Shown piece after piece: positions 2 through 20,012 of a stretch of 64,000 nt of DNA (position 1 is the first letter of the stretch; the number at the start of each line of letters is the position of its first letter). The stretch covers positions 46,520-110,519 of the forward strand of contig JAGYLH010000002.1 of assembly GCA_018400955.1 (NCBI GenBank), written 5' to 3'. The position numbers and the translations under genes are program-made. The notes below the pieces were generated by a model, which saw nothing but the letters and a program-made list of their open reading frames with translations, was not told the DNA's origin and did no database searches. Source of the stretch: Bacteroidales bacterium (GTDB taxonomy: Bacteria > Bacteroidota > Bacteroidia > Bacteroidales > F082).

Positions 2-2650
2 TCAATTGAATCAACCGCACAACGCCCTACTGACTTTTTTAGCACCAGCGCTCAATTCGACAATATGATCAACTTGATCAATTCGCGGCAAACAATTGTC
101 GAAACTTCCATAATGCTCCTTGCCCAAAACCTTTCACTCGAAACTTACAACCAACAATACATCTCCAATGAAAATTATGATAAGCTGCAGAAGTTTATCC
201 CCAAGCATGTCAAAGATATGGTTGTTAAATATGGAAGATCTGGTATTCAACGTGAAAAAGAAGAACAAATCCGCTCGTTGGAACGTGAAATTCGATCTTT
301 AGAGCGCGAAATGAACCGCCGTAAGAATCGGGCGGCACAAGAGCTTAGCGATTTAAATGGAAATGACGAATTCACCCCTGCAACTGGCCTTAGCCGTGAT
401 AACAACTCAATCCAAAATGGCAATCAAGACAATAACACAAGTTTTGCTTATCATGCAGTTCAACCCGGTGAAACGCTTTTCACCATCTCAAAAAGATATG
501 GAGTTAGCATTGCCAAGCTCAGGGAACTAAATAACTTAACCAATCAAAACCTTACTGTAGGGCAACAGCTTATAATTTCTGAAACAACTGCTACTACCTC
601 AAACCAAGGGGGCACTAAAATTGTTAATGAGGACTATGAAGAGTATGAGGATGATGCGTTTATATATGAGCCAGCCAGGCAGGGTGCATTGGGGGAAACC
701 TCCTTTTTTACTGACGATGGTAACTTTAACATTCATATGGAAGGGGGCACCATCGAAAAGGATCCTATCATGCCCCGTGGGGTAAGACAAGAAGACTTCG
801 ACAAAACGATTCAAAACCTGACAAATTATTATAATTCAAGTGATACCAACTTCATATATGGGTTATTACATTGGGGTGCGAACCGGCACTATAGCATTCA
901 GTCAATTCAAAACTCCTTGCAAATATTCAGAATTACCAATAGTGATTTGGTAAGACTGATTTACACCTCTGACGACCCAGGTGTATGCCAACAAACGCTC
1001 AAGATTATTGCCAATGTTTTTGTAAAGAACTATAAGTTGTTGAAAGCAAACCAAACAGACTTGGTTGTTCGCTATTTCAGGGAACAGGTTGATTCGGCTG
1101 ATGTCCGTCTGCAAGCCGCTGAGGACAGGCTGCTTCGTTTCAACAAACGAAACAACATCATCAATTATGCCGAGCAAACCAAATATATTGCTGCGCAAAA
1201 GGAAGACCTTGACCTGTATTACCAGAACGAACAGGTTAGGATGGCTCAATCATCTGCATCGTTGCGCGAGTTGGAAACAAAACTCACCCGACGAGACAGC
1301 ATTTATCTTAAAAGTGACCTGATCAACCAAAGGCGAAAGGAATATGCAGATATTACTGAGCGGATACTTATAAACGAACTGGCAGAGGATTATGACCAGC
1401 GCATTGGTAACGAAATACAAAAGCTTAGGCTGCGAGGTGATCAACTACGTGATGAAATAAAGCTTTATGTTGATCAACTCTATCTATATAGCCACTCCAC
1501 ACAAGGCTTGCCAATTGCAACCTTATTGGAAGAATGGCTTACAAATGCACTCATCTACGAAGAAGCAAAAGCCAGTTTGGTTGTACTATCGCGTCGTAAG
1601 ATGGATTTCGTTAGGACCTATCAACGTTTTGCCCCATTAGGTGCCATGCTTAAAAGGATTGAACGTGAAATAACAGTGGCCGAACAATCATATCTGGAAC
1701 TATTGCGCAGTCTCAACCTGGCTCTAATGCGTCAGCAAAACCTGGCAATGGCAACCAATATAAGAATAATTGATCCGCCATTTTTCCCCTTGTCGGCCAG
1801 ACCTTCCAACGCTAAATTATTGGTTATAGCTGCTTTCTTAATAGGCTTATTTCTGGTAGCCTTTATCATCCTTGTACTGGAGTATTTTGATACATCTATA
1901 AAAAGTCCTGACCGGGTTTCTAATAAGGTGGGCTATAGGCTTGCCGGTGCCTATCCACTGATTGATTCAGCCAATGACCAACGTGATTTGGTCTTTGTAA
2001 GCAATCGCTTGATTGAGCTGATTATACAGAATATTAAACTAAGTATTAACCGTAACACCCTTTATCCAGCCCAAAAACCCTATCTGATTTTATTCTTTAG
2101 CACACAGGATGGCGTCGGTAAAACCTTCCTGGCGCACAAAGTTGCCAATAAACTCAGGACTTATGGAGAGAAAGTACTTCAGCTTAACTACAAATCGGAT
2201 GAAGTAGATAGTGATATTGATGATGACTACAACCTCTCCTACACTTATAAAATCAATGACAACTTTGTAGAGGTTAAAGACCTTCAGGAATTGATGCAAG
2301 GCAATGTTTTACGACGAGAAAATTATAATTACGATTATATATTACTCGAATTACCATCCATCATGTACCACTCATACCCTATGGACCTGATGCAAAATGT
2401 GGACGTAAGCCTATTGCTTATCAAAGCCTCTAGCCAATGGGAAAAAGCTGATGCATCAGCTGTTGAAAGTTTAACTGATGTACTTAGGGAGCCTCCTTTG
2501 GCAATCCTCAATGAAGCAGATGAGTTTGCTATTGATGAAATTGTTTCCGGAATGAAGATCCAGCGGAATAAAAGAACCTGGAAACGTGTCAAGCATGTCA
2601 TAACTTATCCTTCAAGAATCAGGATACAAGTAAAAGACAACCAAGCCTAA
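2..2650 (+). CDS. Polysaccharide co-polymerase (Wzz/Wzc-like) with internal LysM domain and C-terminal P-loop BY-kinase-like domain; 5' end cut by window
   Basis: Frame is open from nt 2 upstream of the listed ATG (SIESTAQRPTDFFSTSAQFDNMINLINSRQ...). LysM at YHAVQPGETLFTISKRYGVSIAKLRELNNLTNQNLTVGQQLIIS; long coiled coil; TM NAKLLVIAAFLIGLFLVAFIILVLEYF; P-loop FFSTQDGVGKTFLA. First gene of an EPS cluster. Confidence 0.85.
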   Translation, partial: SIESTAQRPTDFFSTSAQFDNMINLINSRQTIVETSIMLLAQNLSLETYNQQYISNENYDKLQKFIPKHVKDMVVKYGRSGIQREKEEQIRSLEREIRSLEREMNRRKNRAAQELSDLNGNDEFTPATGLSRDNNSIQNGNQDNNTSFAYHAVQPGETLFTISKRYGVSIAKLRELNNLTNQNLTVGQQLIISETTATTSNQGGTKIVNEDYEEYEDDAFIYEPARQGALGETSFFTDDGNFNIHMEGGTIEKDPIMPRGVRQEDFDKTIQNLTNYYNSSDTNFIYGLLHWGANRHYSIQSIQNSLQIFRITNSDLVRLIYTSDDPGVCQQTLKIIANVFVKNYKLLKANQTDLVVRYFREQVDSADVRLQAAEDRLLRFNKRNNIINYAEQTKYIAAQKEDLDLYYQNEQVRMAQSSASLRELETKLTRRDSIYLKSDLINQRRKEYADITERILINELAEDYDQRIGNEIQKLRLRGDQLRDEIKLYVDQLYLYSHSTQGLPIATLLEEWLTNALIYEEAKASLVVLSRRKMDFVRTYQRFAPLGAMLKRIEREITVAEQSYLELLRSLNLALMRQQNLAMATNIRIIDPPFFPLSARPSNAKLLVIAAFLIGLFLVAFIILVLEYFDTSIKSPDRVSNKVGYRLAGAYPLIDSANDQRDLVFVSNRLIELIIQNIKLSINRNTLYPAQKPYLILFFSTQDGVGKTFLAHKVANKLRTYGEKVLQLNYKSDEVDSDIDDDYNLSYTYKINDNFVEVKDLQELMQGNVLRRENYNYDYILLELPSIMYHSYPMDLMQNVDVSLLLIKASSQWEKADASAVESLTDVLREPPLAILNEADEFAIDEIVSGMKIQRNKRTWKRVKHVITYPSRIRIQVKDNQA

Positions 2651-2653
2651 ACC

Positions 2654-4081
2654 GTGGCCAATTCGATAAACAAAATATTTGGCAGCAATAATTTCCTATC
2701 GCTGGCCAATAATGGACTTGTAGCCGTATTTGGCTTCCTCAGTTTCATTATGCTTGTCAGGCAATTGCCTCAAGATGTGTTTGGCGAATGGATACTCTTT
2801 ATCACCATGGGAAACTTCATTGATATGCTTCGTTTTGGCATAACCCGAACGGCCCTGATTCGGTTTTTATCAGGTGCCAACAAGCTTGAAGCAGAGGAGT
2901 TAATGGGGTCGAACAACACCATTAATCTGGCATCAACGGTGCTTATTTCCGCTATAATCTTAGTGACTTACAATCTATTCTCCGAATCGATTTCTTCTTC
3001 CGGATTCGAAATGTTTTTTATTTGGTATCCACTACTTGCTTTTTTGAACCTTTCTTTTAACAATGCGCAATCTGTTTTGCAAGCAAAAATGCGCTTTGAT
3101 ACCATGCTTTGGCTGAGGTTGATCAATGTAGGGGGATTTATGCTTTTCCTAATCTTAAACCTTTTTACACGCTATGATATCAACACAATTATCTTGGTTT
3201 ATTTGGTAACCAACTTGTTAAGTTCTGTTGTGGCAAGCATTTATAATTGGGATGGCATCAGATATATGGTGAAAACTACTAAACGTTCCATACGTATCAT
3301 ACTGAATTTCGGCAAATACACCACAGGAACGCTTATTGGAAGCAATTTGCTAAAAAGCTCAGATACATTTATTATCGGATTGAGCCCATTTTTAGGAACC
3401 ACAGCTGTTGCCCTCTACAGTATTCCGCTGAAGTTGACAGAAATTATTGAGATTCCACTGCGAAGTTTTGCAGCAACAGCATTTCCGGGTATGTCAAAAG
3501 CAAGCATCGAAAAAAACATTCCGCTGGTAAAGCATATTTTTTATGAAAATGCTGGTGGTATGACATTTCTGTTGATGCCCTTGATGCTGGTATGTTTTAT
3601 TTTTGCCGAACAAATCGTACAAATTCTTGGAGGGCCCGAGTATCTGGAAACAGCAAATATCTTCAGGATTTTCTGTATCTATGGCTTAATTTTACCCATT
3701 GACAGGTTTATAGGGGTAGCACTTGACAGTGTGAACAGGCCCAAACAAAACTTTTTTAAAGTTATCTACATGACTTTATCCAATATCCTGGGGGATCTGC
3801 TGGTTATCTTTGGCATTTCATATGTGATAGCTATTATCTCTGTTACAGTATTTTTTATGAATACGCAGGCTTCTACTGACGGTGTCATCCAAATGGCAAG
3901 TAGCTTTACGATTATTAAAACCCTCGAAATGGTTGCTATAGTGACCATTCTGTTTACAATCATAGGAATACTTGTAGGCTATCATTATCTTAGAAAAGAA
4001 ATGGATTTGCGCATTCGAAGTATATTTGTAGTCGGCTTTGCATCCATAAAGCGAATAACTTTGTCGATAATTAAATTATAA
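2654..4081 (+). CDS. Wzx-like polysaccharide flippase (MATE/MOP superfamily)
   Basis: 475 aa polytopic membrane protein (GTG start) directly after the co-polymerase; Wzx-like N-terminus (NNGLVAVFGFLSFIMLVRQLPQDVFGEW). Confidence 0.85.
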   Translation: MANSINKIFGSNNFLSLANNGLVAVFGFLSFIMLVRQLPQDVFGEWILFITMGNFIDMLRFGITRTALIRFLSGANKLEAEELMGSNNTINLASTVLISAIILVTYNLFSESISSSGFEMFFIWYPLLAFLNLSFNNAQSVLQAKMRFDTMLWLRLINVGGFMLFLILNLFTRYDINTIILVYLVTNLLSSVVASIYNWDGIRYMVKTTKRSIRIILNFGKYTTGTLIGSNLLKSSDTFIIGLSPFLGTTAVALYSIPLKLTEIIEIPLRSFAATAFPGMSKASIEKNIPLVKHIFYENAGGMTFLLMPLMLVCFIFAEQIVQILGGPEYLETANIFRIFCIYGLILPIDRFIGVALDSVNRPKQNFFKVIYMTLSNILGDLLVIFGISYVIAIISVTVFFMNTQASTDGVIQMASSFTIIKTLEMVAIVTILFTIIGILVGYHYLRKEMDLRIRSIFVVGFASIKRITLSIIKL

Positions 4082-4111: not shown

Positions 4112-5605
4112 ATGCTATCAACCTTAAAACAGAGAATAGGCTCAGACAAATTAAGGCATCCGCTCATGATAGCCCTTTTGGTGTTTGTGGTCATCGTTTT
4201 GGGCATGATAATCGGAAAGGGCGGGATGATGGAAGCAATTGCATTGCTTGCGCTTTTTCCAATTATAATTTTTTTCAATCGTTTCCTCAACGATCCACGT
4301 GTTGGTGTCTATACAATCATTATTTTAGGATTTATAGCCATCGGACTTACCCGGTATATACGCAATGTGCCATTTGGCCTTTCAGTTGATGGTTTTATTG
4401 TTCTTACATACATAGCCATTTTCTTCCGCTATTTTTATGAAAAAATCAATTGGTCACAGATCAACCGCGACCTTGTTTATTTAGGTTTGATTTGGTTTTT
4501 CTATGCCCTCCTGCAGCTTTTTAACCCAGAAGCTTTGAGCCGTACAGCCTGGTTTTATGCCATGCGCGGTATGGCTCTGTATATGGTGCTGCTCATACCT
4601 ATCGGATTTCTGCTATTTAGCCGGCTCCGCTATTTGTATGTGTTCCTTTATCTATGGGGCATATTTTCTATAATGGGCACACTTAAAGGTCTGCAACAGT
4701 TGTACCTTGGTCCGGATTCAGCTGAGCAGTTCTGGTTGGATACGGTTGGTGGCATCACACATATCCTGTTTGGTGAGTTACGCGTTTTTTCATTTTTCAG
4801 TGATGCCGGCCAGTTTGGTGCAGCACAGGGTGCTGCTGGTGTGGTAGGCATAATTACTGCGATTAATATCAAAGGGTTTCGCAACAAGGTTTTCTTTGGT
4901 ATAATGGGTTTTATGGGTCTTTGGGGTATGATGATATCGGGAACCAGGGGTGCTATGATTGTGCCAATGATCGGTGGCATCACCTATGTTCTTCACCGTA
5001 AAAACATTAGGGTATTGATAGTTGGGGGGTTGTTTTTGTCTCTTGTGTACGCATTTTTTGTCTATACTTATATAGGTCAGGGCAACTCCCAAATTCGGCG
5101 TATGCGTACCGCCTTCCGACCCGAAACAGATGAATCCTACCTTGTGAGGCTTGAAACAAGGCAGATTCTGAATGTTTATCTTGCCAGTAAACCATTTGGC
5201 GGAGGCATTGGCAGTGCAGGAGACTGGGGAAAACGTTTTTCCGCACATGGTTTTTTAGCCCAAATAGCAACTGACAGCTGGTATGTGCAAATTTGGGCTG
5301 AGCAAGGTATTGTGGGTCTTGTGCTACACCTTTTTATCCTTGCATATATTCTGATAAAAGGTTCATATATTGTCATGTTCAGAATTAAAGAGCCAGAGCT
5401 GCGCGGCATTCTTAGCGCCCTGGTTGCCGGTTTTACTGGAATCATGGGTGCTAGTTACGGCAATGGTGTACTTGGTCAAATGCCAACAGGTATCATGATA
5501 TACCTGAGCTGGACATTTGTTTTTTTGGGAACTCAATTAGAAAGAGAATATAAATATCTTAAATCCAATAATTTACCTATATGGTCATATAAAAACAAAA
5601 CCTGA
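4112..5605 (+). CDS. O-antigen ligase/Wzy-like polymerase
   Basis: 497 aa, many TMs, large loop with GGGIGSAGDWGKRFS and DSWYVQIWAEQGIVGL typical of the Wzy_C/O-antigen ligase family. Confidence 0.85.
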   Translation: MLSTLKQRIGSDKLRHPLMIALLVFVVIVLGMIIGKGGMMEAIALLALFPIIIFFNRFLNDPRVGVYTIIILGFIAIGLTRYIRNVPFGLSVDGFIVLTYIAIFFRYFYEKINWSQINRDLVYLGLIWFFYALLQLFNPEALSRTAWFYAMRGMALYMVLLIPIGFLLFSRLRYLYVFLYLWGIFSIMGTLKGLQQLYLGPDSAEQFWLDTVGGITHILFGELRVFSFFSDAGQFGAAQGAAGVVGIITAINIKGFRNKVFFGIMGFMGLWGMMISGTRGAMIVPMIGGITYVLHRKNIRVLIVGGLFLSLVYAFFVYTYIGQGNSQIRRMRTAFRPETDESYLVRLETRQILNVYLASKPFGGGIGSAGDWGKRFSAHGFLAQIATDSWYVQIWAEQGIVGLVLHLFILAYILIKGSYIVMFRIKEPELRGILSALVAGFTGIMGASYGNGVLGQMPTGIMIYLSWTFVFLGTQLEREYKYLKSNNLPIWSYKNKT

Positions 5606-5665: not shown

Positions 5666-6586
5666 ATGAGAAATAACTTACCCTTGGTTTCTGTTATTAC
5701 GGTAAATTACAACCAATCAGTTGTTACCTGTGAGTTTCTCGCCTCACTACGTAAGGTTACCTACCCAAATCTTGAAATTTTTGTGGTGGACAATGCTTCA
5801 CCCAATGACAGTCCCGAAATTATTAAGGAGGAATATCCAGAAGTAATACTGATCAAAACAGCTAAAAATCTGGGCTTTGCCGGTGGTAATAACGTAGCTG
5901 TAGAAAAAGCAAAAGGTAAGTATCTCCTATTCATCAATAACGATACGGAAGTAGAGCCTGGATTCCTGGAACCCATGGTGAGCCTGCTCGAACAGGATAA
6001 AAGTATCGGTATGGTAAGTCCCAAAATTCATTATTTTCATACGCCAAATACCTTCCAGTATGCTGGTTTTACGCCTATTAACCATATTAGTATAAGAAAC
6101 TTTGCCATTGGTTTTGGAGAAACTGACCAGGGGCAATACGACATAACTTGCGAAACGGGTTCTATTTTTGGTGCAGCAATGCTTGTTCCGCTCAAGGTTG
6201 TTCAGCAAGTTGGCATGATGGCAGATGTGTTTTTTCTGTACTACGAGGAGCATGATTGGGCTGCACATATAAAAAGGGCCGGTTATAAAATTTACTATCA
6301 GGGGAAATCGCTTGTGCTGCATAAAGAGTCTATTTCAACTGTAAAGGATAGCCCTTTCCAAATCTTTTACCTTACACGGGGTCGCGTGCTTTACGCGCGA
6401 CGAAATTCATATGGCATCGCAGGTTTATTGAGTATGTTTTACCTCTACCTGATTGCCTGGCCCAAGCTTACCCTTGGCTTTATTTTGCGCAGACGCTTGG
6501 ACCTCGCCAACGCACTCCGACGGGCAATGGTATGGAATATGCTTAATCACAAAGGAATACACGATACACCCCAACTAAAAAATTGA
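5666..6586 (+). CDS. Family 2 glycosyltransferase (copy 1 of duplicated module, first gene)
   Basis: VSVITVNYNQ, VDNASPNDSPEII, NNDTEVEPGFLEP: rhamnosyltransferase-like GT2. Confidence 0.9.
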   Translation: MRNNLPLVSVITVNYNQSVVTCEFLASLRKVTYPNLEIFVVDNASPNDSPEIIKEEYPEVILIKTAKNLGFAGGNNVAVEKAKGKYLLFINNDTEVEPGFLEPMVSLLEQDKSIGMVSPKIHYFHTPNTFQYAGFTPINHISIRNFAIGFGETDQGQYDITCETGSIFGAAMLVPLKVVQQVGMMADVFFLYYEEHDWAAHIKRAGYKIYYQGKSLVLHKESISTVKDSPFQIFYLTRGRVLYARRNSYGIAGLLSMFYLYLIAWPKLTLGFILRRRLDLANALRRAMVWNMLNHKGIHDTPQLKN

Positions 6587-6589
6587 CAT

Positions 6590-7810
6590 ATGGACTATCT
6601 TCGAATTTTTACTATTATTGTGGAGCTGGTTTTTTATGCTTATTTTACCGTGGCAGTTGTTTACATTTTTGTGTACAGTTTTGCCACGATTTTCTATAGA
6701 AGAAGATCACGCCCAACACCAACAAAAATCCGAAAGATCGCAGTGCTTATACCTGGTTACAAAGAAGATGCAGTAATTGTTGATGTGGCCAAGGATGCAC
6801 TCAAGCAAGATTATCCAAAGGATAAGTTTGAAGTAATAGTGATAGCCGACTCTTTTAAACAGGAAACACTTGACGCCTTGAAGAAATTGCCTATCCGGGT
6901 TGTCGAAGTTGTGTTTGAAATCAGTAAAAAATCCAAAGCACTGAATAAATGTATGGAAACGATTGGCGATGATTATGACATTGCCATGATACTTGATGCT
7001 GATAACCTGATGGCGCGCAATGTTTTGACTATTATGAACCAAACCTTTGAAATGGGTTTTGTTGCTGTGCAGGGTCATCGCACCGCCAAAAATACCAATA
7101 CCGCATTTGCAGTTCTGGATGCTGTAAGTGAAGAAATTAACAACAGTATTTTCCGTAAAGGTCACAGGGCATTGGGGCTGTCATCAGCACTGATTGGTTC
7201 TGGTATGGCTATTGAATATGCCCTCTTTAAAAAAACCATGGCAACAATTGATTCAGTTGGTGAGGACAAAGAAGTTGAATTGAAACTACTGAAACAGGCC
7301 TACACCATTGAATATGCTGATGACGCATGGGTATATGACGAAAAAACATCAAAATCAGATGTTTTCGTTAACCAACGGCGCAGATGGATTGCAGCCCAAT
7401 TGACCTATTTCAAGGATTACTTTTTTAGTGGTGTGTTCCACCTGTTCCGCTACGGCAATATCGATTATTTCGACAAGGTTATGCAAATGGTGCAACCACC
7501 GCGTATCTTGCTTTCAGGAATACTTTTCATCATTACGCTGGGTTCGTTCCTGGCAAATATTTTTTTAACACAGTTCATTGAGCAATTCTTTTTGCTCTCT
7601 TTCTATCACTGGGTCATACTGTTTTTATTTACTGTGTTGGCTATGCTTATGGCAGTGCCAAAGCGGCTTTACACAGCAAAAACTTTTAAAGCCTTGTTAT
7701 CATTACCTTTAGGTTTTTTATTAATGATTATGAGTATTTTAAGAATAAAAGGTGCAAGCAAACGGTTTATTCACACAACGCACTCACATACAGGGGACGT
7801 AGAAAAATAG
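6590..7810 (+). CDS. Membrane GT2 glycosyltransferase, processive-synthase-like (copy 1, second gene)
   Basis: ILDADN and QRRRW motifs, N- and C-terminal TM segments. Confidence 0.88.
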   Translation: MDYLRIFTIIVELVFYAYFTVAVVYIFVYSFATIFYRRRSRPTPTKIRKIAVLIPGYKEDAVIVDVAKDALKQDYPKDKFEVIVIADSFKQETLDALKKLPIRVVEVVFEISKKSKALNKCMETIGDDYDIAMILDADNLMARNVLTIMNQTFEMGFVAVQGHRTAKNTNTAFAVLDAVSEEINNSIFRKGHRALGLSSALIGSGMAIEYALFKKTMATIDSVGEDKEVELKLLKQAYTIEYADDAWVYDEKTSKSDVFVNQRRRWIAAQLTYFKDYFFSGVFHLFRYGNIDYFDKVMQMVQPPRILLSGILFIITLGSFLANIFLTQFIEQFFLLSFYHWVILFLFTVLAMLMAVPKRLYTAKTFKALLSLPLGFLLMIMSILRIKGASKRFIHTTHSHTGDVEK

Positions 7811-7838
7811 TTTATAAGAAAGCAATAAGCACGGATAC

Positions 7839-8768
7839 ATGTCAATAACAAAGAAAAAATATCCACTAGTTTCAATAATTACGGTAAATTACAACCAGGC
7901 AGCAGTTAGTTGTGCCCTCATCGAATCGCTGAATAAGATTACGTATCCCAATTTTGAAATTATTGTTATAGACAATGCCTCACCGGATGACGATGCATCG
8001 ATTATCAAAGCCCGTTACCCAAATATTGTATTCGTGCAAAACCCCATTAATTATGGCTTCGCAGCCGGGAATAACTTTGGACTGATGCGCGCCCGTGGCG
8101 AATACGTGCTTTTGCTCAATAACGACATTGAAGTACCTTCCGGCTTTATGGAACCATTGGTGGATAAACTTGAATCGGACAAAAGCATCGGTGCCGTAAG
8201 CCCACTTATTAAATACTTTTATGCCGCTGACACTGTACAGTATGCAGGCTACACCCCCATCAACTACATCACCATGCGCAATACTGCCATTGGCCATCAA
8301 CAAAAGGACAACGGGCAGTTCAATACAGACAGGGAAACAGCTTATGCCCATGGGGCAGCTATGATGGTGCCTATTGAGGTGGTGAAAAAGGTTGGCCTGA
8401 TGTCATATATATTCTTTTTGTATTATGAAGAAGCAGATTGGTGTGCCCGCATCAAACAAGCAGGTTACAAAATTTTCTTTGTTCACAATTCCTATGTGTT
8501 GCACAAAGAATCAGTTAGCACTGGCAAACTGAGCGCACTCAAAATATATTACTTAAACAGAAATCGTATCGTCTTTATGCGGCGCAATGTTTTTGGTCGC
8601 GATTTCTACGGCGGAATGGCCTATCAATTTTTTATTGCCATTCCTAAAAATGCCTTTAAATGGTTAATTAAAGGAAAAATTAATCTTTTTTTGGCTTATT
8701 ACCAAGCCATTGGCTGGCACCTGACACATTTGTTTGATCGTGAAATCCACGAAAACCCTCAATTGTAA
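7839..8768 (+). CDS. Family 2 glycosyltransferase (copy 2, first gene)
   Basis: Clear paralogue of 5666..6586 (ITVNYNQ, DNASPDD, QYAGYTPIN, FFLYYEEADW, LHKESVST). Confidence 0.9.
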   Translation: MSITKKKYPLVSIITVNYNQAAVSCALIESLNKITYPNFEIIVIDNASPDDDASIIKARYPNIVFVQNPINYGFAAGNNFGLMRARGEYVLLLNNDIEVPSGFMEPLVDKLESDKSIGAVSPLIKYFYAADTVQYAGYTPINYITMRNTAIGHQQKDNGQFNTDRETAYAHGAAMMVPIEVVKKVGLMSYIFFLYYEEADWCARIKQAGYKIFFVHNSYVLHKESVSTGKLSALKIYYLNRNRIVFMRRNVFGRDFYGGMAYQFFIAIPKNAFKWLIKGKINLFLAYYQAIGWHLTHLFDREIHENPQL

Positions 8769-8770
8769 AC

Positions 8771-10036
8771 ATGGAACTAAACTACTCATACCTGCTGAAT
8801 GCACTGCAACTTCTATTGTTGGTTTACCTTGGCTCAACAAGTTTGTACCTGTTTATATTTGCTATTGCCAGCTTATTCCCCTATACAAGAAAGAAGCCCC
8901 GTGATTTTAAGAAAAGACGATTTGCACTCCTCATACCCTGTTATCGTGAAGATGACGTAATTATAGAAGTTAGTAAAAGTGCCCTGGCTCAAAACTATCC
9001 TAAATCGCATTTTGATGTGGTAGTTATTGCTGATAAATTTGATCACAAAACCATCAAAAAACTCAACGACCTGCCAATAATACTTTACAACGAAGATTTT
9101 CCTGTAAGTACCAAAACGCGCGCCTTGAATCATGCCCTTATCAACCTGCCTGAAAACAAATATGATATAGTTTGCATTTTAGATGCTGACAACGTGATGG
9201 AACCTAAATTCCTAGGCAAATTAAATGATGCATTTTCGAATGGTTATATGGCCGTACAAGGCCACAGGGTAGCTAAAAATATGAATACGGATTTCGCGAT
9301 TCTTGATGCCATCAGCGAAGAAATAAACAATAATTTGTTTCGCAAAGGTCATCGTGTTTTGGGCCTTTCATCTGCATTAATTGGATCAGCCATGGCATTT
9401 GACTACAATTTTTTTAAAGATTTAATGCAAGATGTAGAGGTTGTTGGTGGTTTTGATAAGGAAATTGAACTGCGCTTATTGCGTGATGGCTACCTCATTG
9501 AATACTTACCATTTGCCTATGTTTACGATGAAAAAGTACAAAATGCAGCCGTTTTTTCCCGACAAAGACGTCGTTGGCTATCAGCGCAGTTTCATTATTT
9601 CGGCATCCACTTTTATCCGGCACTTAAGTCATTATTTACTACAGGTAATATTGACTATTTCAACAAAGCCTTACAATATCTGCAATTGCCGAGGCTACTT
9701 CTGGCAGGTATTCTTGCTATTATAACTACAACTTCCTGGTTGCTCAATGCAAAAAGCTACTTTACAACTGCCTGGTCTATTAGTTTGTTTTTGGCCATAG
9801 TTACAATCTTGCTAACAATTCCGGCTAAGTTCTATAACTTTACCACCTTAAAGGCAATGGCTGCGCTTCCGATAGGTTTTCTATATATGCTTTTATCGCT
9901 AATCAGAATCAAAGGAGCCAATAAGCATTTTATACACACCAAGCACACATTCAATGCATTCCAGATTAAAAGCAAAAAGAATAAATTAAAAGTCAACGAA
10001 TATGAAAATAGGAATCGAAGGTCAAAGACTTTTTAG
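8771..10036 (+). CDS. Membrane GT2 glycosyltransferase (copy 2, second gene)
   Basis: Clear paralogue of 6590..7810 (AVQGHR.AKN.NT.FA.LDA.SEEINN..FRKGHR.LGLSSALIGS, QRRRW). Confidence 0.88.
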   Translation: MELNYSYLLNALQLLLLVYLGSTSLYLFIFAIASLFPYTRKKPRDFKKRRFALLIPCYREDDVIIEVSKSALAQNYPKSHFDVVVIADKFDHKTIKKLNDLPIILYNEDFPVSTKTRALNHALINLPENKYDIVCILDADNVMEPKFLGKLNDAFSNGYMAVQGHRVAKNMNTDFAILDAISEEINNNLFRKGHRVLGLSSALIGSAMAFDYNFFKDLMQDVEVVGGFDKEIELRLLRDGYLIEYLPFAYVYDEKVQNAAVFSRQRRRWLSAQFHYFGIHFYPALKSLFTTGNIDYFNKALQYLQLPRLLLAGILAIITTTSWLLNAKSYFTTAWSISLFLAIVTILLTIPAKFYNFTTLKAMAALPIGFLYMLLSLIRIKGANKHFIHTKHTFNAFQIKSKKNKLKVNEYENRNRRSKTF

Positions 10037-11141
10037 GCTTAAGAAACATGGCATGGACATGGTTGCGCTCGAACTTATTCGCAACCTGCAGAAAATTGAT
10101 ACCGAAAATGAGTACTATATTTTTGTCAAACCGGATGTGGACTCCGGCTGCCTGAGCCCGAGCGATAATTTTCATATTGTTGAACTTGGCGGTGGCCCCT
10201 ACCCTAGCTGGGAGCAAATTGCCCTGCCAAAAGCAGCTAAAAAATACGGATGCGATGTGTTGCATTGCACAAGCAATACGGCGCCAGTGAACAGCAAAAT
10301 ACCCTTGATCATTACCTTGCACGATATCATTTACCTCGAGAGCATCAGTATTTTCAAAAAAGGTGGCACCTGGTATCAGAAGTTGGGCAATATGTACCGA
10401 CGATGGAATGTGCCCAGGGTGGTCAAAAAAAGTGAGTATATCATCACGGTTTCGCACTTTGAGAAAAACAGGATTAAAAGCTTCTTTGGTTTTCCTGAAG
10501 ATGATAAACGCTTGGTAGCCATTTATAATGGGGTAAGTGAGCATTTTGTTAAAATTACAGACCTTAGTGAATTGAACAGGGTAAAAGAAAAATATCAACT
10601 GCCAGATAATTATGCTTTCTTCCTGGGAAACACCGACCCCAAAAAAAATACCAGGAATGTGCTCAAAGCCTTTTCTGACTACCTGAAAACACCAAACCCA
10701 CCTATGAAGCTGGTAATGCTTGATTATGAGAAATCTGCTCTTGATGCATTGCTTGCCGAAATTGGCGACAAACAATTAATCAACCACATTCACCTTACAG
10801 GTTATGTAGTAAACACTGACCTGCCAGCGATTTATAGCCAATGTAAGCTGTTTTTGTACCCCTCCTTAAGGGAAAGTTTTGGCATTCCCATGCTCGAAGC
10901 CATGCGTTGCGGAAGCCCTGTTATCACCTCAAACACTTCAAGCATGCCTGAAGTATCAGGAGGTGCGGCACTCATAATCGATCCGTACAAAGCGGAAGAA
11001 ATTACCGAGGCGATGATTAAACTAGTTCAGGACGAAAAGCTTCGTGATGATATAATACAAAAAGGTTTTCTGCAAGCTGAAAAATTCTCATGGCAGGCCA
11101 TGGCCAGGGAAGTGCTGAACCTTTATAAGGATATTGCGTAA
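10002..11141 (+). CDS. GT4-family glycosyltransferase
   Basis: PSLRESFGIPMLEAMRCGSPVITSNTSSMPEVSGGAALIIDPY; start overlaps the previous gene by 35 nt. Confidence 0.9.
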   Translation: MKIGIEGQRLFRLKKHGMDMVALELIRNLQKIDTENEYYIFVKPDVDSGCLSPSDNFHIVELGGGPYPSWEQIALPKAAKKYGCDVLHCTSNTAPVNSKIPLIITLHDIIYLESISIFKKGGTWYQKLGNMYRRWNVPRVVKKSEYIITVSHFEKNRIKSFFGFPEDDKRLVAIYNGVSEHFVKITDLSELNRVKEKYQLPDNYAFFLGNTDPKKNTRNVLKAFSDYLKTPNPPMKLVMLDYEKSALDALLAEIGDKQLINHIHLTGYVVNTDLPAIYSQCKLFLYPSLRESFGIPMLEAMRCGSPVITSNTSSMPEVSGGAALIIDPYKAEEITEAMIKLVQDEKLRDDIIQKGFLQAEKFSWQAMAREVLNLYKDIA

Positions 11142-11175
11142 AAAGGAAACCTGATTAAACACCAATTAACTGCAC

Positions 11176-12384
11176 ATGATTACAAACAGAGATTTCATCA
11201 TTGTTGGTTTACAAGCCCTGGATAGCCGTATCGGAAGCAATTGTATCAATATCGCTCATGAAATAGCACGGCACAACAGGGTGCTGTATGTTAATTACCC
11301 GCTTGACAGGCTTACCCGCTTACGCGAAAAAAATGATCCTTTGATTCAAAAACGTCTGAGGATCCTTAAGGGAAAAGAACCTGATCTGGTGCAAATTTCC
11401 GAGAATATGTGGAATTTAAATCCACGTACCATGCTCGAATCCATCAGTCAAATACCTTTCAATGGACTTTTCGATTTCTTCAACAGGATCAATAACAAGC
11501 GGTTTGCAAGGGAAATTAAAAAGGCAATTAACAAGCTGGGCTTTAGTAATTACTTTATTTTTAATGATTCGGATATGTTCCGTAGTTTATATTTGAAGGA
11601 ATTGCTCAACCCAGAACTGTATGTGTATTATACCCGCGATAATCTTATCGCTGTTGATTTCTGGAAAAAACAAGGCATCCGAATCGAAGCGGAATTAATG
11701 GCAAAGGCTGACCTTGTGGTTGGCAATTCAACCTACCTTGCCGATCATGCACGCCAATTCAATCCCCACTCCTATTACGTAGGTCAGGGTTGTGATGTAA
11801 GCCTGTTTGATACTAAGCTTATCAAAAACGTACCCGATGACATCGCGAAAATTAAACGGCCTATCATCGGTTATATTGGGGCTTTATTTTCGCTACGGCT
11901 TGATATTGAAGTGCTTATTTATTTAGCCAAGCAAAGGCCTGATTGGAGTATTGTATTGGTAGGCCCCGAGGATGAAGCTTTTAAAACCAGTGAGTTGCAC
12001 CAAATTGAAAATGTATATTTCCTTGGCAGTAAAAAGATGGAAGAATTACCTGATTATTTGAACCCATTCGATGTGGCACTCAATCCGCAAAAGCTCAACG
12101 AAGTAACAATAGGTAATTATCCACGTAAAATTGATGAATATCTGGCAATGGGCAAGCCAACAGTAGCCACACGTACAAAAGCCATGGAGGTATTCGCCGA
12201 TCATACCTATCTTGCCGATACCAAAGAAGACTATTTAGCATTGGTGGAAAAAGCCCTTTTGGAGAACACCTCCGAGATGGAAAAGGAAAGGGAGGTATTT
12301 GCCAAAAGTCATACATGGGAAAATAACGTGAAGGAGATTTATGATAAAATGCTCCTTTTAATGACCCAACCAAAAGCAATATGA
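11176..12384 (+). CDS. Glycosyltransferase (GT4-like)
   Basis: 402 aa; IGYIGALFSLRLDIEVLIYLAKQRPDWSIVLVGP and YPRKIDEYLAMGKPTVATRTKAMEVF. Confidence 0.85.
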   Translation: MITNRDFIIVGLQALDSRIGSNCINIAHEIARHNRVLYVNYPLDRLTRLREKNDPLIQKRLRILKGKEPDLVQISENMWNLNPRTMLESISQIPFNGLFDFFNRINNKRFAREIKKAINKLGFSNYFIFNDSDMFRSLYLKELLNPELYVYYTRDNLIAVDFWKKQGIRIEAELMAKADLVVGNSTYLADHARQFNPHSYYVGQGCDVSLFDTKLIKNVPDDIAKIKRPIIGYIGALFSLRLDIEVLIYLAKQRPDWSIVLVGPEDEAFKTSELHQIENVYFLGSKKMEELPDYLNPFDVALNPQKLNEVTIGNYPRKIDEYLAMGKPTVATRTKAMEVFADHTYLADTKEDYLALVEKALLENTSEMEKEREVFAKSHTWENNVKEIYDKMLLLMTQPKAI

Positions 12385-13853: not shown

Positions 13854-15053
13854 ATGCTTGCTATGGAAATCCTTTTTTGGTTTTTAGTTTTTATCGTCTT
13901 CTATGCCTATATTGGTTACGGAATGCTACTTTTTATTATGGTTCTTATAAAACGGCTTTTTACTGCAAAAGAAAAAAGCACCCTTGATATCATTTACGAG
14001 CCGGAAGTAACGCTGTTTGTTGCCGCCTTCAACGAAAAAGATTATGCCGATGCCAAAGTACAGAATGGTTTCGAGATTGATTACCCCAAACATAAGATAA
14101 GGCAGGTTTGGGTAACAGATGGGTCTGATGATGGCACACCTGAAGTGCTACAGAAGTATAAAGATCAAGGCGTTGAAGTATATCATGAAAACAAAAGGGG
14201 GGGGAAGATTGGTGCCATGAACAGGGGCATGCAGTTTGTTAAAACACCTATTGTTGTCTTTTCGGATGGTAATACCGTATTGGGAAAAGAATCGGTTCAA
14301 CGCATCGTAAACTTATTTAAAGATCCAAAAGTAGGCTGTGTATCAGGCGAGAAACGTATCTATAACAAGGAAAAGGACAACGCAGCCGGTACAGAAGGTA
14401 TCTATTGGAAATACGAATCCACACTGAAAAAATGGGATGCTGAGCTGTATTCCGTTGTTGGCGCTGCCGGTGAACTATTCGCCGTTCGCACCGAATTGTT
14501 CCAAGAAGTGGAAAAAGATACTTTGCTTGACGATTTTATCATTTCGTTGCGCATTGCTATGCAGGGTTTTACCATCCAATACGATCCGGAAGCTTATGCC
14601 ATTGAAACTTCGTCTGCCAACGTGAAGGAAGAACTCAAACGCAAGGTTCGTATCGCTGCTGGTGGCATACAGTCCATCATCAGGCTCAGCCCCTTGCTCA
14701 ATGTTTTTAAACATGGCATGTTGAGCTTTCAATACATTTCGCACCGGGTATTGCGCTGGACACTCGCTCCGTTTTCGCTTCCGTTAATTTTACTTTTAAA
14801 TCTTTGGATAGCTGTGGATTATGGTATTACCAACTTCAACAATCTTTACGTACTTTTGTTCTTCGCACAAATCATCTTCTACACAATGGCCTTGCTGGGT
14901 TGGTATTTGGAAAACAAAGCGATAAAAATTAAACTTCTGTTTATCCCCTACTATTTTTTCATTATGAACCTGGCTGTTTTTCTTGGTATTAAAAGGTATT
15001 TTAAAGGCAGTCAAACAGTAAACTGGGAGCGCGCAAAAAGAGGAACAAAATAA
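13854..15053 (+). CDS. Family 2 glycosyltransferase, membrane-associated
   Basis: VTLFVAAFNEKD, VTDGSDDGTPEVL, LDDFIISLRI, KRKVRIAAGG, C-terminal TMs. Confidence 0.9.
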   Translation: MLAMEILFWFLVFIVFYAYIGYGMLLFIMVLIKRLFTAKEKSTLDIIYEPEVTLFVAAFNEKDYADAKVQNGFEIDYPKHKIRQVWVTDGSDDGTPEVLQKYKDQGVEVYHENKRGGKIGAMNRGMQFVKTPIVVFSDGNTVLGKESVQRIVNLFKDPKVGCVSGEKRIYNKEKDNAAGTEGIYWKYESTLKKWDAELYSVVGAAGELFAVRTELFQEVEKDTLLDDFIISLRIAMQGFTIQYDPEAYAIETSSANVKEELKRKVRIAAGGIQSIIRLSPLLNVFKHGMLSFQYISHRVLRWTLAPFSLPLILLLNLWIAVDYGITNFNNLYVLLFFAQIIFYTMALLGWYLENKAIKIKLLFIPYYFFIMNLAVFLGIKRYFKGSQTVNWERAKRGTK

Positions 15054-16696
15054 TGTGGAACCGGGTAAAAATAGGGCTGCTGATGCCCATACTTTTTTCC
15101 CAATACCTGTTGTTGGGTCAATACAATTGCACCTATTTTGTTGAAACCAACCAAAACGTGGTTGATGGCCAGCAATTTTCGCCTGGCGATGTTATTTGCC
15201 TTTATCCGGGATTGCGGTCGTTTTTACTATTTAACAACCTGCATGGAACTGAAGAACAGCCTATAACAATAGTCAACAACATCGGACAGGTGGTTATCGA
15301 CACCGATCATTTTTACGGTGTTAAATTCAGTAATTGCAGTCATATCCGGTTTACCGGAACAGGCAATAGCGTAATTGAATATGGTATTTATATCCGACGC
15401 GTGGACAATGGCGCAGGCCTAAGTATTGACGATTTGAGTACTGATTTTGAACTGGACCATTTACGCATATCGAATACAGCCCTGGGGGGAATTTATGCCA
15501 AAACCGACCCTGACTGTAGTTTTCAGGCAACCCGTGATAATTTTACATTTACCAATCTCCGTATCCATCACTGTTGGTTGCACGACATTCAGGATGAGGG
15601 CCTTTATATTGGAAGCTCAAAATATACCGGTCAATACCTTCCGGATTGCGATACAACGGTGTTGCCTCACATTTTGACAGGTGTTCATATTCATGACAAC
15701 CTGGTGGAACATACCGGTTGGGATGGCATTCAGGTAAGCTCCTCCCCGATTGATTGCCAGGTTTATAACAATACAATTCTTTATGATTCATGGCGAGAGA
15801 CGCACTTTCAAATGTCGGGCATACTCATTGGAGGTGGTTCTACGTGCAATTGTTACAATAACCATATTGCCAATGGAAAAGGTGATGGAATAGACGTATT
15901 CGGAAGTGGGGAAATGCAGATGTATAACAATTTAATTGTTAACGCCGGCCGGAGTTTTCAGCCCACCGACCCGACACAATCCAAGCATGGCATTTTTGTG
16001 GGAAATGCACCCGATGGCAGCCCTGTAAACATTAAGATGCTTTACAACACCATCGTAAGCCCGAAAAGCACCGGCATAAGATTCTTAAATTCAAATTCTT
16101 CTGAAAATCTTATTGTGAACAATATCATTGTGGATCCGGGCAATTTTGGGCAAAGTGGCCAACAAGCCTTCTTTAACCATGAATTGTCGGCATCTCAGTT
16201 TACCCTGTCGAATAATTTATTTTCTGATAACCTTAATATACCCAAGTTTATTGATGCTATGCATAACTTTGATTTACAGCCCAATTCGCCTGCTGTAAAT
16301 GCTGCAATGGATGCAGGCAGCTACCAACCAAATTTTGATATCCTGATGCGTCCCAGGCCGCACAACGGTGCTTTTGATATTGGTGCTTTCGAGAGCCAGG
16401 ACCCCTATGCAAGCTTGAACGAAAATGTTGCTGTTAAAGGGAAATTAGATATCAGAATTCAAGCAAACCCTGTTTCCGAACTACTTCTGCTTCAGGTGAA
16501 TGCCTGTGAAGATATGCAAATCCACATCAAATTGGTAAAAATTGATGGCGGAATAGTTTACCAATTTCCAAAACAACAAATACCCTCCGGTAAGTCGCAT
16601 TTGCAACTTGATATTGCATATTTCTCAAAAGGGGTTTATTTGTGTACGATTATTACTGATGAACAATCAATTACAAAAAAAGTTGTTCTTTACTAA
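15053..16696 (+). CDS. Secreted right-handed parallel beta-helix protein with T9SS C-terminal sorting domain
   Basis: Signal peptide (LLMPILFSQYLLLGQ), repeated beta-helix rungs (GIQVSSSPIDCQVYNNTILY, GIDVFGSGEMQMYNNLIVNAG), Por-secretion-like tail ending SITKKVVLY; start overlaps the GT2 stop (taATG). Confidence 0.85.
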   Translation: MWNRVKIGLLMPILFSQYLLLGQYNCTYFVETNQNVVDGQQFSPGDVICLYPGLRSFLLFNNLHGTEEQPITIVNNIGQVVIDTDHFYGVKFSNCSHIRFTGTGNSVIEYGIYIRRVDNGAGLSIDDLSTDFELDHLRISNTALGGIYAKTDPDCSFQATRDNFTFTNLRIHHCWLHDIQDEGLYIGSSKYTGQYLPDCDTTVLPHILTGVHIHDNLVEHTGWDGIQVSSSPIDCQVYNNTILYDSWRETHFQMSGILIGGGSTCNCYNNHIANGKGDGIDVFGSGEMQMYNNLIVNAGRSFQPTDPTQSKHGIFVGNAPDGSPVNIKMLYNTIVSPKSTGIRFLNSNSSENLIVNNIIVDPGNFGQSGQQAFFNHELSASQFTLSNNLFSDNLNIPKFIDAMHNFDLQPNSPAVNAAMDAGSYQPNFDILMRPRPHNGAFDIGAFESQDPYASLNENVAVKGKLDIRIQANPVSELLLLQVNACEDMQIHIKLVKIDGGIVYQFPKQQIPSGKSHLQLDIAYFSKGVYLCTIITDEQSITKKVVLY

Positions 16697-16714: not shown

Positions 16715-17530
16715 ATGTCAATGACTGGCCTAAAAAAAATAATCCCCAGGCGTTTCGGCTATTATCTGCGTCGATGGCGTTTATATCTGCGTGGTCTGAC
16801 TAACAGGGGAAATGCTTACCATTGCCCCCTTTGCAACCACAGCTACCGCAAAATGTTTGATGGTGGTTTCGACCTGCCGGTTATTAAAAAGATGCAAATT
16901 ATTGGCGCTGGCCGTCGCAAATCCGTTATTTGTCCCGGCTGCAATTCAACTGACCGCGACCGCTTATTGTATGTCTATATAAATCAATGTGTTGATATAA
17001 ATAAAAAGAGCAGAATACTGCATATTGCCCCCGAACCAGCATTGGCTCCTTTTTTGCAAAAGCTTGCCCCGGATAATTATGTAGCAGGTGTAAAATACCA
17101 TGAGGGTTTTTATTATAGCAAAAATGTAAAACTATTTGATATCAAAGCTATTCCATATGACAATGAATCGTTCGACCTCATCCTTTGCAATCATGTGCTG
17201 GAACACATTGATGAGGATGATAAAGCCATGCGGGAACTATACAGGGTTTTGGCTTCCGGTGGAAAAGCTATCCTTCAGGTACCCTGGTCGCCCTTGCTTA
17301 AAACAACAGTGGAAGACCCTTCAGTTACTGATGAGGCCAAAAGGGAAGAATTATTCGGACAGTTTGACCACGTGCGACTTTATGGAAATGACTACCCTCA
17401 ACGTATAGAAAATGCCGGCTTTTTAGTCCACATTATAGACCCGAATTCACTATTTAATGAAAATATTCCGGCTGAACGATTGGCAATTAATCTAAATGAA
17501 GTTATATTTGTCGGTGAAAAACAAACTTAA
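16715..17530 (+). CDS. Class I SAM methyltransferase with N-terminal Zn-ribbon-like CxxC pairs
   Basis: CPLC...CPGC; FDLILCNHVLEHIDEDDKAMRELYRVLASGGKAIL. Confidence 0.85.
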   Translation: MSMTGLKKIIPRRFGYYLRRWRLYLRGLTNRGNAYHCPLCNHSYRKMFDGGFDLPVIKKMQIIGAGRRKSVICPGCNSTDRDRLLYVYINQCVDINKKSRILHIAPEPALAPFLQKLAPDNYVAGVKYHEGFYYSKNVKLFDIKAIPYDNESFDLILCNHVLEHIDEDDKAMRELYRVLASGGKAILQVPWSPLLKTTVEDPSVTDEAKREELFGQFDHVRLYGNDYPQRIENAGFLVHIIDPNSLFNENIPAERLAINLNEVIFVGEKQT

Positions 17531-17531
17531 C

Positions 17532-20012
17532 ATGGCCTTTTACCCCCATTGTAGATGGCTTTCGGGCTATTCCAGAATAATTAAAATTCATTTTTTAAGC
17601 ATCCTAACCCTATTTATTTTTGTTGGTGCGCCATTGCAAGTCAAACCAAATACAACAGATAATCAATCATTTAAGTATTATTTTGAAACGCAGCCCTACC
17701 CCCACTTCAATTCGGATATTAAAAATAATACAGGAGGTGTTTTCAATTTGATTGACATCGGCAGCCTCACACCAGAAAATGCCACTCCGGTGCAGACACT
17801 TGAAATGGCCTTGGAATACAATAAATTGTCAAAGCGATTTTTGGAATTGGGACTTTATACCCTTGCCAATATTTTTGCCTCCGAAGGACTGGTATGGGCA
17901 AAAAAGGCCAATAACCCAGAAATATTATTCAGTGCCCACAACATCAATGCCTTGACCTTTGAACACCTTTATAATACAGCCTCTGCTGTTGAGCATTTAA
18001 AGGTCATGATAAGGCTGAGTGAGACAGCATTTGACAATGAGCATGTGGCCTTTTCGCTTACAAGGCTTTCTGCTTTGTACATCAGGATGCAGGATAGTGC
18101 CCGGGCTGGAATTTACCTGGAGGCAGCACTTACCCTAAAGGAAGCTATTGAGGAAAATGCCGCTTTAAATGCACTGTTTTATCTGGAAAAGCTGAATTAC
18201 ATGTTCATGGTGGGGGAAATTGAAAAAGCTGAAAATATACACTTAAAGATCATTCAAACCGCTGACAAGGATTTTTTAATCAAGGCTTTGGGATTCATTG
18301 GTAATTTTCCACCAGAAAGTATTTACAAGCAAAACAATGAAGAGAAATACCTTTTAACAGCATTGGATTTAGCAGCAGAGAAAGCAAACCTGAGCTATTC
18401 TGTCTGGATAAAGGATTTATTGAGTCATTATTATAAGCAAACAGCTCAGGAAAAGTCATTTTACTATTTGAACGAATCCCTTTACAACCGTCAAACCATC
18501 CATGTCCTAATAGATGAATGGCGAACCCTCGCGTTGCAGGAGATAGCTGAAAAACACAAACTTCAGCAAACTGGAATTGACAAAGCTAAATCCAAAGACT
18601 TAATAATCAACATTATCCTTTTGGTTATTCTCTTTTCGACTATTGTTTTTTTACTATATCGCATTTCTCGATTACGAAAGCAAAATCGAAAAATAAAAGC
18701 TGAACATAGCACGAGCAAAAAGAAAATTAACCTTCTGATAGATGCTGCCGAAAACCATATAGAAGAAAGGATTTCTGAGCGTATTCAGGTGATGGAAGAA
18801 GAGCTCAACGAAAGGAAAAAAGTGGACGTTGAACTCAAAATAGCATTACAGAAGGCAGAGGATGCAAACTACCTGAAAAACGCCTTTCTTGCCAATATAA
18901 GCCATGAAATCAGGACACCCCTGAACGGTATCCTTGGCTTTTCGAACCTATTAGAGGTCGAACTTGCGTTGATTGATAACCCTGAGCTTTTTGAATACGC
19001 CAGTTCCATCCAGCAAAGTGGTGAGCGCTTGCTGCACCTTTTAAACAACATCATCGATATCAGCCGCATTGAGGCCAATGACCTTGAAATGAAGATATTG
19101 CCTCACAACATCAACATCTTGATACGAGAAGCAATTGAATTGTACACTTTCAAGGCCAATGAAAAAGGCCTCAGATTGGTCAATAATTTCAATCATGACC
19201 TATTGGTATCTACCGATCGCGATACACTGACGCGCGTAATTTGCGAAGTGCTTGATAATGCCATTAAATACACAGAAAAAGGATTTATCAGGCTCGATCT
19301 TGTTGATGACAATGCCAAAGGGAAGATGATAATATGTATCAAAGATACCGGTTTAGGTATTGATGAGTCATATCTTCCCCACATATATGAAGCATTCAGA
19401 CAGGAAAGTCTCGGCTACTCCCGGCTATATCAGGGTGCAGGTTTAGGAATCCCATTGGCTTACAGGATGATGGAACTTATGGGTGGAATACTCCGCATTG
19501 AGTCGCAGAAGGCAATTGGGACGACTGTTTTCCTTGAAATTCCTAAAGCAAGCCAGGATATGGAAAGTGTCCCTTCTAAAAATATAATAATTGAGTCCCA
19601 GATCAAGGATGTAGTGCTTAGTGACCTGAATATACTTGTAGTGGAAGATGACAGGGCCAATATGTTATTGGTAAAGAAAATGGTTAAACCTTATGGAATA
19701 ATCCATATTGCAATGGATGGGGAATCTACACTGAATTTATTGCAGAGTCAAACAGATCAGAATGTCCGTATGGATGTGTTTCTGCTCGACATAAATTTGC
19801 CTGCTCCGTGGGATGGCATTAAACTGATGCAAGCCATTAAGCACAGGTATCCGTTTTATGAAAACAGCATTTTTATTGCTGTAACTGCCTATGCCATGTC
19901 AGGTGATAAAGATCGTTTACTTGAAGCCGGATTTAATGATTATATCCCTAAACCCATTGATAAAGAACTTCTTATACAAACTATTAAATTCAATTGGCTT
20001 AAAATTACTTAA
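17532..20012 (+). CDS. Hybrid sensor histidine kinase (TPR-like sensor, HisKA-HATPase, C-terminal receiver)
   Basis: NAFLANISHEIRTPLNGILGFSNLLE; NAIKYTEKG; DTGLGI; GAGLGIPLAYRMMELMGG; receiver ILVVEDD...LLDINLP...VTAYAM...KPID. Likely start 17532 (MAFYPH), inside the listed ORF 17496. Confidence 0.93.
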   Translation: MAFYPHCRWLSGYSRIIKIHFLSILTLFIFVGAPLQVKPNTTDNQSFKYYFETQPYPHFNSDIKNNTGGVFNLIDIGSLTPENATPVQTLEMALEYNKLSKRFLELGLYTLANIFASEGLVWAKKANNPEILFSAHNINALTFEHLYNTASAVEHLKVMIRLSETAFDNEHVAFSLTRLSALYIRMQDSARAGIYLEAALTLKEAIEENAALNALFYLEKLNYMFMVGEIEKAENIHLKIIQTADKDFLIKALGFIGNFPPESIYKQNNEEKYLLTALDLAAEKANLSYSVWIKDLLSHYYKQTAQEKSFYYLNESLYNRQTIHVLIDEWRTLALQEIAEKHKLQQTGIDKAKSKDLIINIILLVILFSTIVFLLYRISRLRKQNRKIKAEHSTSKKKINLLIDAAENHIEERISERIQVMEEELNERKKVDVELKIALQKAEDANYLKNAFLANISHEIRTPLNGILGFSNLLEVELALIDNPELFEYASSIQQSGERLLHLLNNIIDISRIEANDLEMKILPHNINILIREAIELYTFKANEKGLRLVNNFNHDLLVSTDRDTLTRVICEVLDNAIKYTEKGFIRLDLVDDNAKGKMIICIKDTGLGIDESYLPHIYEAFRQESLGYSRLYQGAGLGIPLAYRMMELMGGILRIESQKAIGTTVFLEIPKASQDMESVPSKNIIIESQIKDVVLSDLNILVVEDDRANMLLVKKMVKPYGIIHIAMDGESTLNLLQSQTDQNVRMDVFLLDINLPAPWDGIKLMQAIKHRYPFYENSIFIAVTAYAMSGDKDRLLEAGFNDYIPKPIDKELLIQTIKFNWLKIT

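Follow-up and report, generated by a model that had tools for sequence, protein, structure and literature searches.

Wzc of E. coli (PCP-2a; PDB 7nhr and the 9r62 series) has two TM helices, a Wzz-like base, helical arms and a P-loop domain and belongs to a Wzx/Wzy operon, and the co-polymerase described here resembles it in all of these. The jelly roll of E. coli Wzc (motif 2) comprises residues 110-206 (PMC8285477); binding of glycans that contain GlcNAc/Gal is reported for it, and very little capsule is left when it is deleted (PMC12881504). The text of the latter paper, which describes the Wza-Wzc structure, does not mention peptidoglycan. Our protein differs from Wzc in having a LysM insertion where Wzc has the jelly roll, in its P-loop domain (no acidic Walker A' residue, Glu for the Walker B Asp, no Tyr-rich tail) and in its partner gene, which is of the OEP (TolC-like) type instead of Wza. 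With Wzz (PCP-1) it shares the TM-base-helices-TM plan and a weak Pfam Wzz match, but it has in addition a cytoplasmic P-loop domain, the LysM insertion (∼190 aa) and an operon that includes an outer-membrane gene.

Several other trans-envelope machines are known to carry modules that bind the wall and are less conserved than the machine itself, for example TsaP, GspA/GspB (OutB) and the AMIN domain of PilQ in pilus and type 2 secretion systems (PMC9239104). Those modules belong to other machines and proteins, whereas the module reported here is built into the co-polymerase itself. FimV/HubP also combines a periplasmic LysM-like domain with a TM helix and a cytoplasmic part, but it is a polar organiser and has no co-polymerase part (PMC12918733). 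The earlier note did not know the architecture as a described PCP subtype; likewise, a non-exhaustive search of the open-access literature found no description of it, and no paper with a LysM-bearing co-polymerase as the subject of its title or abstract. The architecture bears on the question of how rings for polysaccharide export are positioned in the peptidoglycan layer and get across it.

Architecture of the co-polymerase

The window (the whole stretch of 64,000 nucleotides that was analysed, G000:C112:46520-110519) starts inside the co-polymerase gene: the ORF at 2-2650 (+) is open at its 5' end, as the earlier note had stated, and 5'-upstream DNA fetched to read the true gene start places it 159 bases before window base 2. 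The full-length protein has 935 aa (L002:9843-12650). The window holds residues 54-935, and the preceding 53 aa, with the first TM helix (TM1), are encoded upstream, from G000:C112:46362. The features of the gene, in window coordinates, are:

2..2650, + strand, LysM-bearing polysaccharide co-polymerase (residues 54-935 of 935)
44..133, + strand, Wzz-like base, first half: the helices that follow strand beta1 (residues 68-97)
230..340, + strand, charged coiled-coil helix opening the insertion (residues 130-166; helix 134-169 in homologue L034)
341..448, + strand, acidic disordered N-linker (residues 167-202, pI about 4.1)
449..580, + strand, LysM domain (residues 203-246, pI about 9.7)
581..787, + strand, acidic disordered C-linker (residues 247-315, pI 4.1)
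788..1804, + strand, base, second half, together with the long helical arms (residues 316-654)
1805..1888, + strand, second TM helix, TM2 (about residues 655-682; TM helix 658-689 in the L034 model, offset 4)
2078..2542, + strand, cytoplasmic P-loop domain lacking the catalytic motifs of BY-kinases (Walker A, GVGKT, at 757-761; the position of the Walker B Asp is taken by Glu836)

Judged from its sequence and from a homologue's predicted structure, the protein is a Wzc/Wzz-type co-polymerase with two TM helices, a Wzz-like base, helical arms and a cytoplasmic P-loop domain. Topology, fold, profile and operon all agree with the earlier reading of a Wzz/Wzc-like co-polymerase in which a TM helix and a P-loop follow the LysM. 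The Pfam Wzz match (residues 1-87) scores 16.7 bits against a cut-off of 25.5 and the GNVR match (residues 603-678) 23.9 bits against 27.7; neither reaches its curated threshold, both are recognisable nonetheless (the Wzz score of the window locus in the genome search was 22.4), and we judge these sub-threshold scores to be outweighed by the fold and profile matches to Wzc. A frameshift or fusion artefact is ruled out, as its homologues in other assemblies are co-linear with it from end to end (49-69% identity).

The structure used is an AlphaFold2 model of the 936-aa homologue L034, which is of low overall confidence (pLDDT 60.5, pTM 0.38). It contains two TM helices (14-33 and 658-689) and long helical arms, and a Foldseek comparison with the PDB gave ten matches at E ≤ 0.001, all of them to Wzc, with low global TM-scores. 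The LysM beta-alpha-alpha-beta fold is predicted at 208-252 (strand 208-211, helices 218-225 and 229-236, strand 248-252; pLDDT about 70), with disorder on either side of it (170-206 and 254-311). The whole-protein model is too weak for the position of the LysM relative to the ring to be read from it.

The LysM insertion

Pfam assigns residues 205-245 to LysM with an E-value of 8.8e-15 (54.8 bits, cut-off 20.9). The earlier note had proposed a canonical LysM at about nt 449-580 from the letters alone; the string it quoted lies at exactly these positions, and the domain search, in which a missing LysM would have spoken against it, returned this highly significant match. A chance match is ruled out by this E-value and by the dozens of homologues that carry the domain in the corresponding position. 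The LysM lies between the only two TM helices of the protein, which by topology puts it on the periplasmic side and rules out a cytoplasmic LysM.

The domain is housed in a periplasmic insertion of ∼190 aa, which starts with a coiled coil; the LysM follows, flanked on both sides by long, fast-changing acidic linkers. The whole insertion is absent from the LysM-less homologues in the alignment, whose sequence runs from '...LVV' straight to a 'D..ATIENL...NFIYELLNY'-like stretch; the compared interval spans 32 residues in these homologues and about 130-280 in the LysM forms. In the window protein the LysM is basic (pI 9.7) and both flanking linkers are acidic (pI 4.1). Pairwise identity is 0.59-0.60 for the LysM and 0.19-0.26 for the linkers, which argues that the domain itself, and not just the insertion, is under selection. 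Pfam finds LysM in 70 of the 72 inserts scanned (one or two copies), and every complete Lentimicrobiaceae-type member that was aligned has retained it. For the LysM segment, the closest matches among curated models and solved chains are mostly peptidoglycan hydrolases (MltD, Iap/p60, DipM, LytE). Three homologues (L090, L099 and L158) have a short insert without LysM at the same place, possibly the remnant of a lost LysM insertion.

Where the insertion falls relative to Wzc was assessed with a profile of the LysM-less members, which matches the canonical Wzc of the window genome with 98% probability (E 1.3e-13). In this pairing TM1/beta1 (weakly) and the strand after the insertion match their Wzc counterparts, and the canonical Wzc of the window genome in turn aligns with E. 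coli Wzc. Because these flanking anchors pair with Wzc, the LysM is placed in the interval of the chain that holds the jelly roll in Wzc; this is a mapping of anchors and not a residue alignment of the inserts. No jelly roll or other strand-rich domain is found between the two halves of the base in the L034 model, where the interval consists of helices, linkers and the LysM.

The P-loop domain

The cytoplasmic domain has kept Walker A (GVGKT at 757-761; G759 and K760 in 70 of 70 LysM members that have the region). The acidic residue of Walker A' is missing (VLQLNYKSDE, compared with VLLGFDLRKP in the canonical Wzc at G000:C24). The Walker B Asp (IIIDTPP) is replaced by Glu836, which is a Glu in 70 of 70 LysM members that have the region and in 54 of the 61 others, and there is no Tyr-rich C-terminal tail (0-3 Tyr in the last 25 residues across the co-polymerase family). 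With three of the four motifs failing we reject a BY-kinase identity, so that the tyrosine-kinase (BYK) label given in the earlier note has to be dropped. The domain may still bind nucleotide, but a tyrosine-kinase function is unlikely. The canonical Wzc of the window genome (G000:C24:1243-3777; L183) ends in a long Gly-Tyr repeat (GYGYGY...), and a Wza gene lies just upstream of it.

Operon and outer-membrane partner

By its gene content the co-polymerase locus is a Wzx/Wzy operon. Upstream of the co-polymerase are a response-regulator-like gene, a sugar transferase (Bac_transf, 5.9e-54) and a gene for a 255-aa OEP protein; downstream are:

2654..4081, + strand, Wzx-type flippase (Polysacc_synt_3, Pfam)
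4112..5605, + strand, Wzy-type polymerase (Wzy_C, Pfam)
5666..12384, + strand, six glycosyltransferase genes (same order in close relatives)

The order Bac_transf, OEP, co-polymerase, Wzx, Wzy and glycosyltransferases is conserved, and its core recurs with and without LysM. In 79 loci, again with or without LysM, the distance from the OEP stop codon to the start of the co-polymerase open frame is between -64 and +34 bases.

The OEP gene (L002:9065-9829) is a half-size TolC-like gene with one OEP repeat, found where Wza would be expected. No Wza was found near the co-polymerase when its loci were searched with phmmer, the Wza from C24 being the sole query. In the window genome Wza adjoins other co-polymerase genes, at C24 and C146, which makes the LysM system an additional one in this genome. 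TolC is about twice as large as the OEP product. In the model of an OEP homologue (pLDDT 76) there are a single beta hairpin, whose two strands have 16 residues each, a helix of 72 residues and some shorter helices, which corresponds to one predicted TolC repeat; the 30 matches of the model in the PDB at E ≤ 0.001 are to channels of the TolC family or to complexes of these. By analogy with TolC, a hexamer would be needed to make a 12-stranded pore from such a half-size protein. No paper on a TolC with Wzx and a tyrosine kinase in Bacteroidetes was found in the open-access literature. What these loci document is a broad Bacteroidota group of co-polymerases with a P-loop domain that lacks the BY-kinase signature and with a TolC-like gene replacing Wza.

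Distribution and evolution

Full-length or nearly full-length relatives, with about 52-69% identity, are found in 23 of the 37 searched genomes of the window's family (its own included), and LysM forms likewise in 23 of the 37. In genome_contigs, 25 loci encode relatives at 49-68% identity, all in Bacteroidetes/Bacteroidales/Lentimicrobiaceae MAGs. The order sample comprised 393 genomes, 69 of which carry this type of co-polymerase: 32 have LysM (one LysM in 18, two in 14), two have a LysM-free insert and 35 have no insert. Four further LysM members, with two LysMs each, come from a single family outside the order in the class sample. In the phylum sample this co-polymerase also occurs in other classes, but no LysM was found in any of those members, so all LysM forms found are from within the class. 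With these searches the architectures, for which the earlier note had suggested a census, were sampled at the levels of family, order, class and phylum, and the LysM form is conserved over many genomes; the LysM-bearing architecture is real and conserved in a group of Bacteroidales. The earlier note was right about a LysM in a co-polymerase, and the wall anchoring or sensing that it suggested is plausible; what it overlooked is that the insertion is removable, that many relatives have two LysMs and that a TolC-like gene replaces Wza.

LysM presence requires seven changes on a tree made by a quick method without bootstrap, with the insertion columns excluded, a count that gives no direction of change. 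The one-LysM clade of the window sits among two-LysM proteins. In one genome (G058) we observed a 419-aa relative (L132:3992-5248, - strand) in which the whole co-polymerase base and the arms have been lost, while TM1, TM2, the P-loop and a LysM-like stretch remain. Its LysM is weak (not listed by Pfam at E ≤ 0.01 for the whole protein), and the gene is not located in or beside a Wzx/Wzy operon.

Possible roles of the LysM domain

LysM is a wall-binding family, and LysMs bind GlcNAc polymers. We think it probable that the LysM is a peptidoglycan tether for the export machine: wall binding is suggested by the family, by nearest relatives that are mostly wall hydrolases, by the presence of peptidoglycan in the same compartment and by linkers that allow reach, and a tether is plausible since other trans-envelope machines carry wall-binding modules as a less conserved part. 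The co-polymerase is, by homology and model, the inner-membrane component of a Wzx/Wzy polysaccharide export machine; its LysM would bind the glycan strands of peptidoglycan and tether the co-polymerase ring to the wall, and the tethered ring would be held in a position from which its helical arms could reach the TolC-like outer-membrane partner, whose gene lies directly upstream. If the ring is octameric like that of Wzc, 8-16 LysMs would bind with avidity. About half of the co-polymerase family is without LysM in otherwise alike operons, so that such a tether would not be essential to the basic machine; with 0, 1 or 2 LysMs in similar operons, these natural co-polymerases make a wall-tethering role testable by domain removal or swap.

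The location of the LysM in the slot of a glycan-binding jelly roll counts against the tether and for binding of the polymer, its strongest rival, because the Wzc jelly roll is reported both to bind glycans and to be needed for capsule (PMC12881504). The LysM could have taken over from the jelly roll as the site that receives the repeat unit or the nascent polymer (a GlcNAc-containing one, for instance), and could guide it from flippase to polymerase or gauge its length. The anchors on either side of the LysM are those that flank the jelly roll in Wzc, no jelly roll is predicted here, and GlcNAc polymers are established LysM ligands. However, disordered linkers of such length (37 and about 60 residues) are better suited to reaching out on a tether than to a docked site at the membrane, the slot is empty of any domain in the LysM-less members, so that a glycan receptor there is not obligatory, and the nearest LysM relatives are mostly wall hydrolases; we regard the receptor role as unlikely. 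A related arrangement, in which 8-16 tethered LysMs hold the growing polymer in a machine that has no tyrosine kinase and exports through a half-size TolC-like pore in place of Wza, would be a new way to steer or measure a polymer chain and seems to us rather unlikely as well.

Two further explanations appear improbable to us. The LysM might sense the state of the wall (exposed glycan or lipid II) and signal via TM2 to the P-loop, gating polymerisation: LysM, TM2 and P-loop are joined in one chain, and the 419-aa relative keeps these parts and TM1 without base and arms. But linkers that are disordered and variable in length are poor for rigid signal transfer, the kinase motifs are absent, and the short relative comes from a single genome and has a LysM that Pfam does not list in the whole protein at E ≤ 0.01. 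It is similarly improbable that the insertion is a tolerated passenger, with a LysM acquired by domain shuffling and lost or doubled without much effect. The roughly seven changes of presence on the tree and the short LysM-free inserts kept in some lineages (L090, L099 and L158) would fit a passenger; the conservation of the LysM far above that of its linkers, and its retention in every complete Lentimicrobiaceae-type member aligned, would not.

Other genes of the cluster and genome

Inside the polysaccharide cluster (window 15053-16696) lies a gene for a beta-helix protein whose C-terminal sorting domain is of the type IX secretion kind, and this gene is adjoined by one for a PgaC/NodC-like glycosyltransferase (below the curated cut-off). 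At the cluster end is a hybrid histidine kinase gene (window 17496-20012); histidine-kinase-like ORFs are also found upstream of the operon in several relatives. Elsewhere in the window genome (G000:C1:87138-88510), two Wzz-type proteins (L061 and L062; open frames of 346 and 374 aa), neither with a kinase domain, are encoded in tandem and are followed by a membrane protein.
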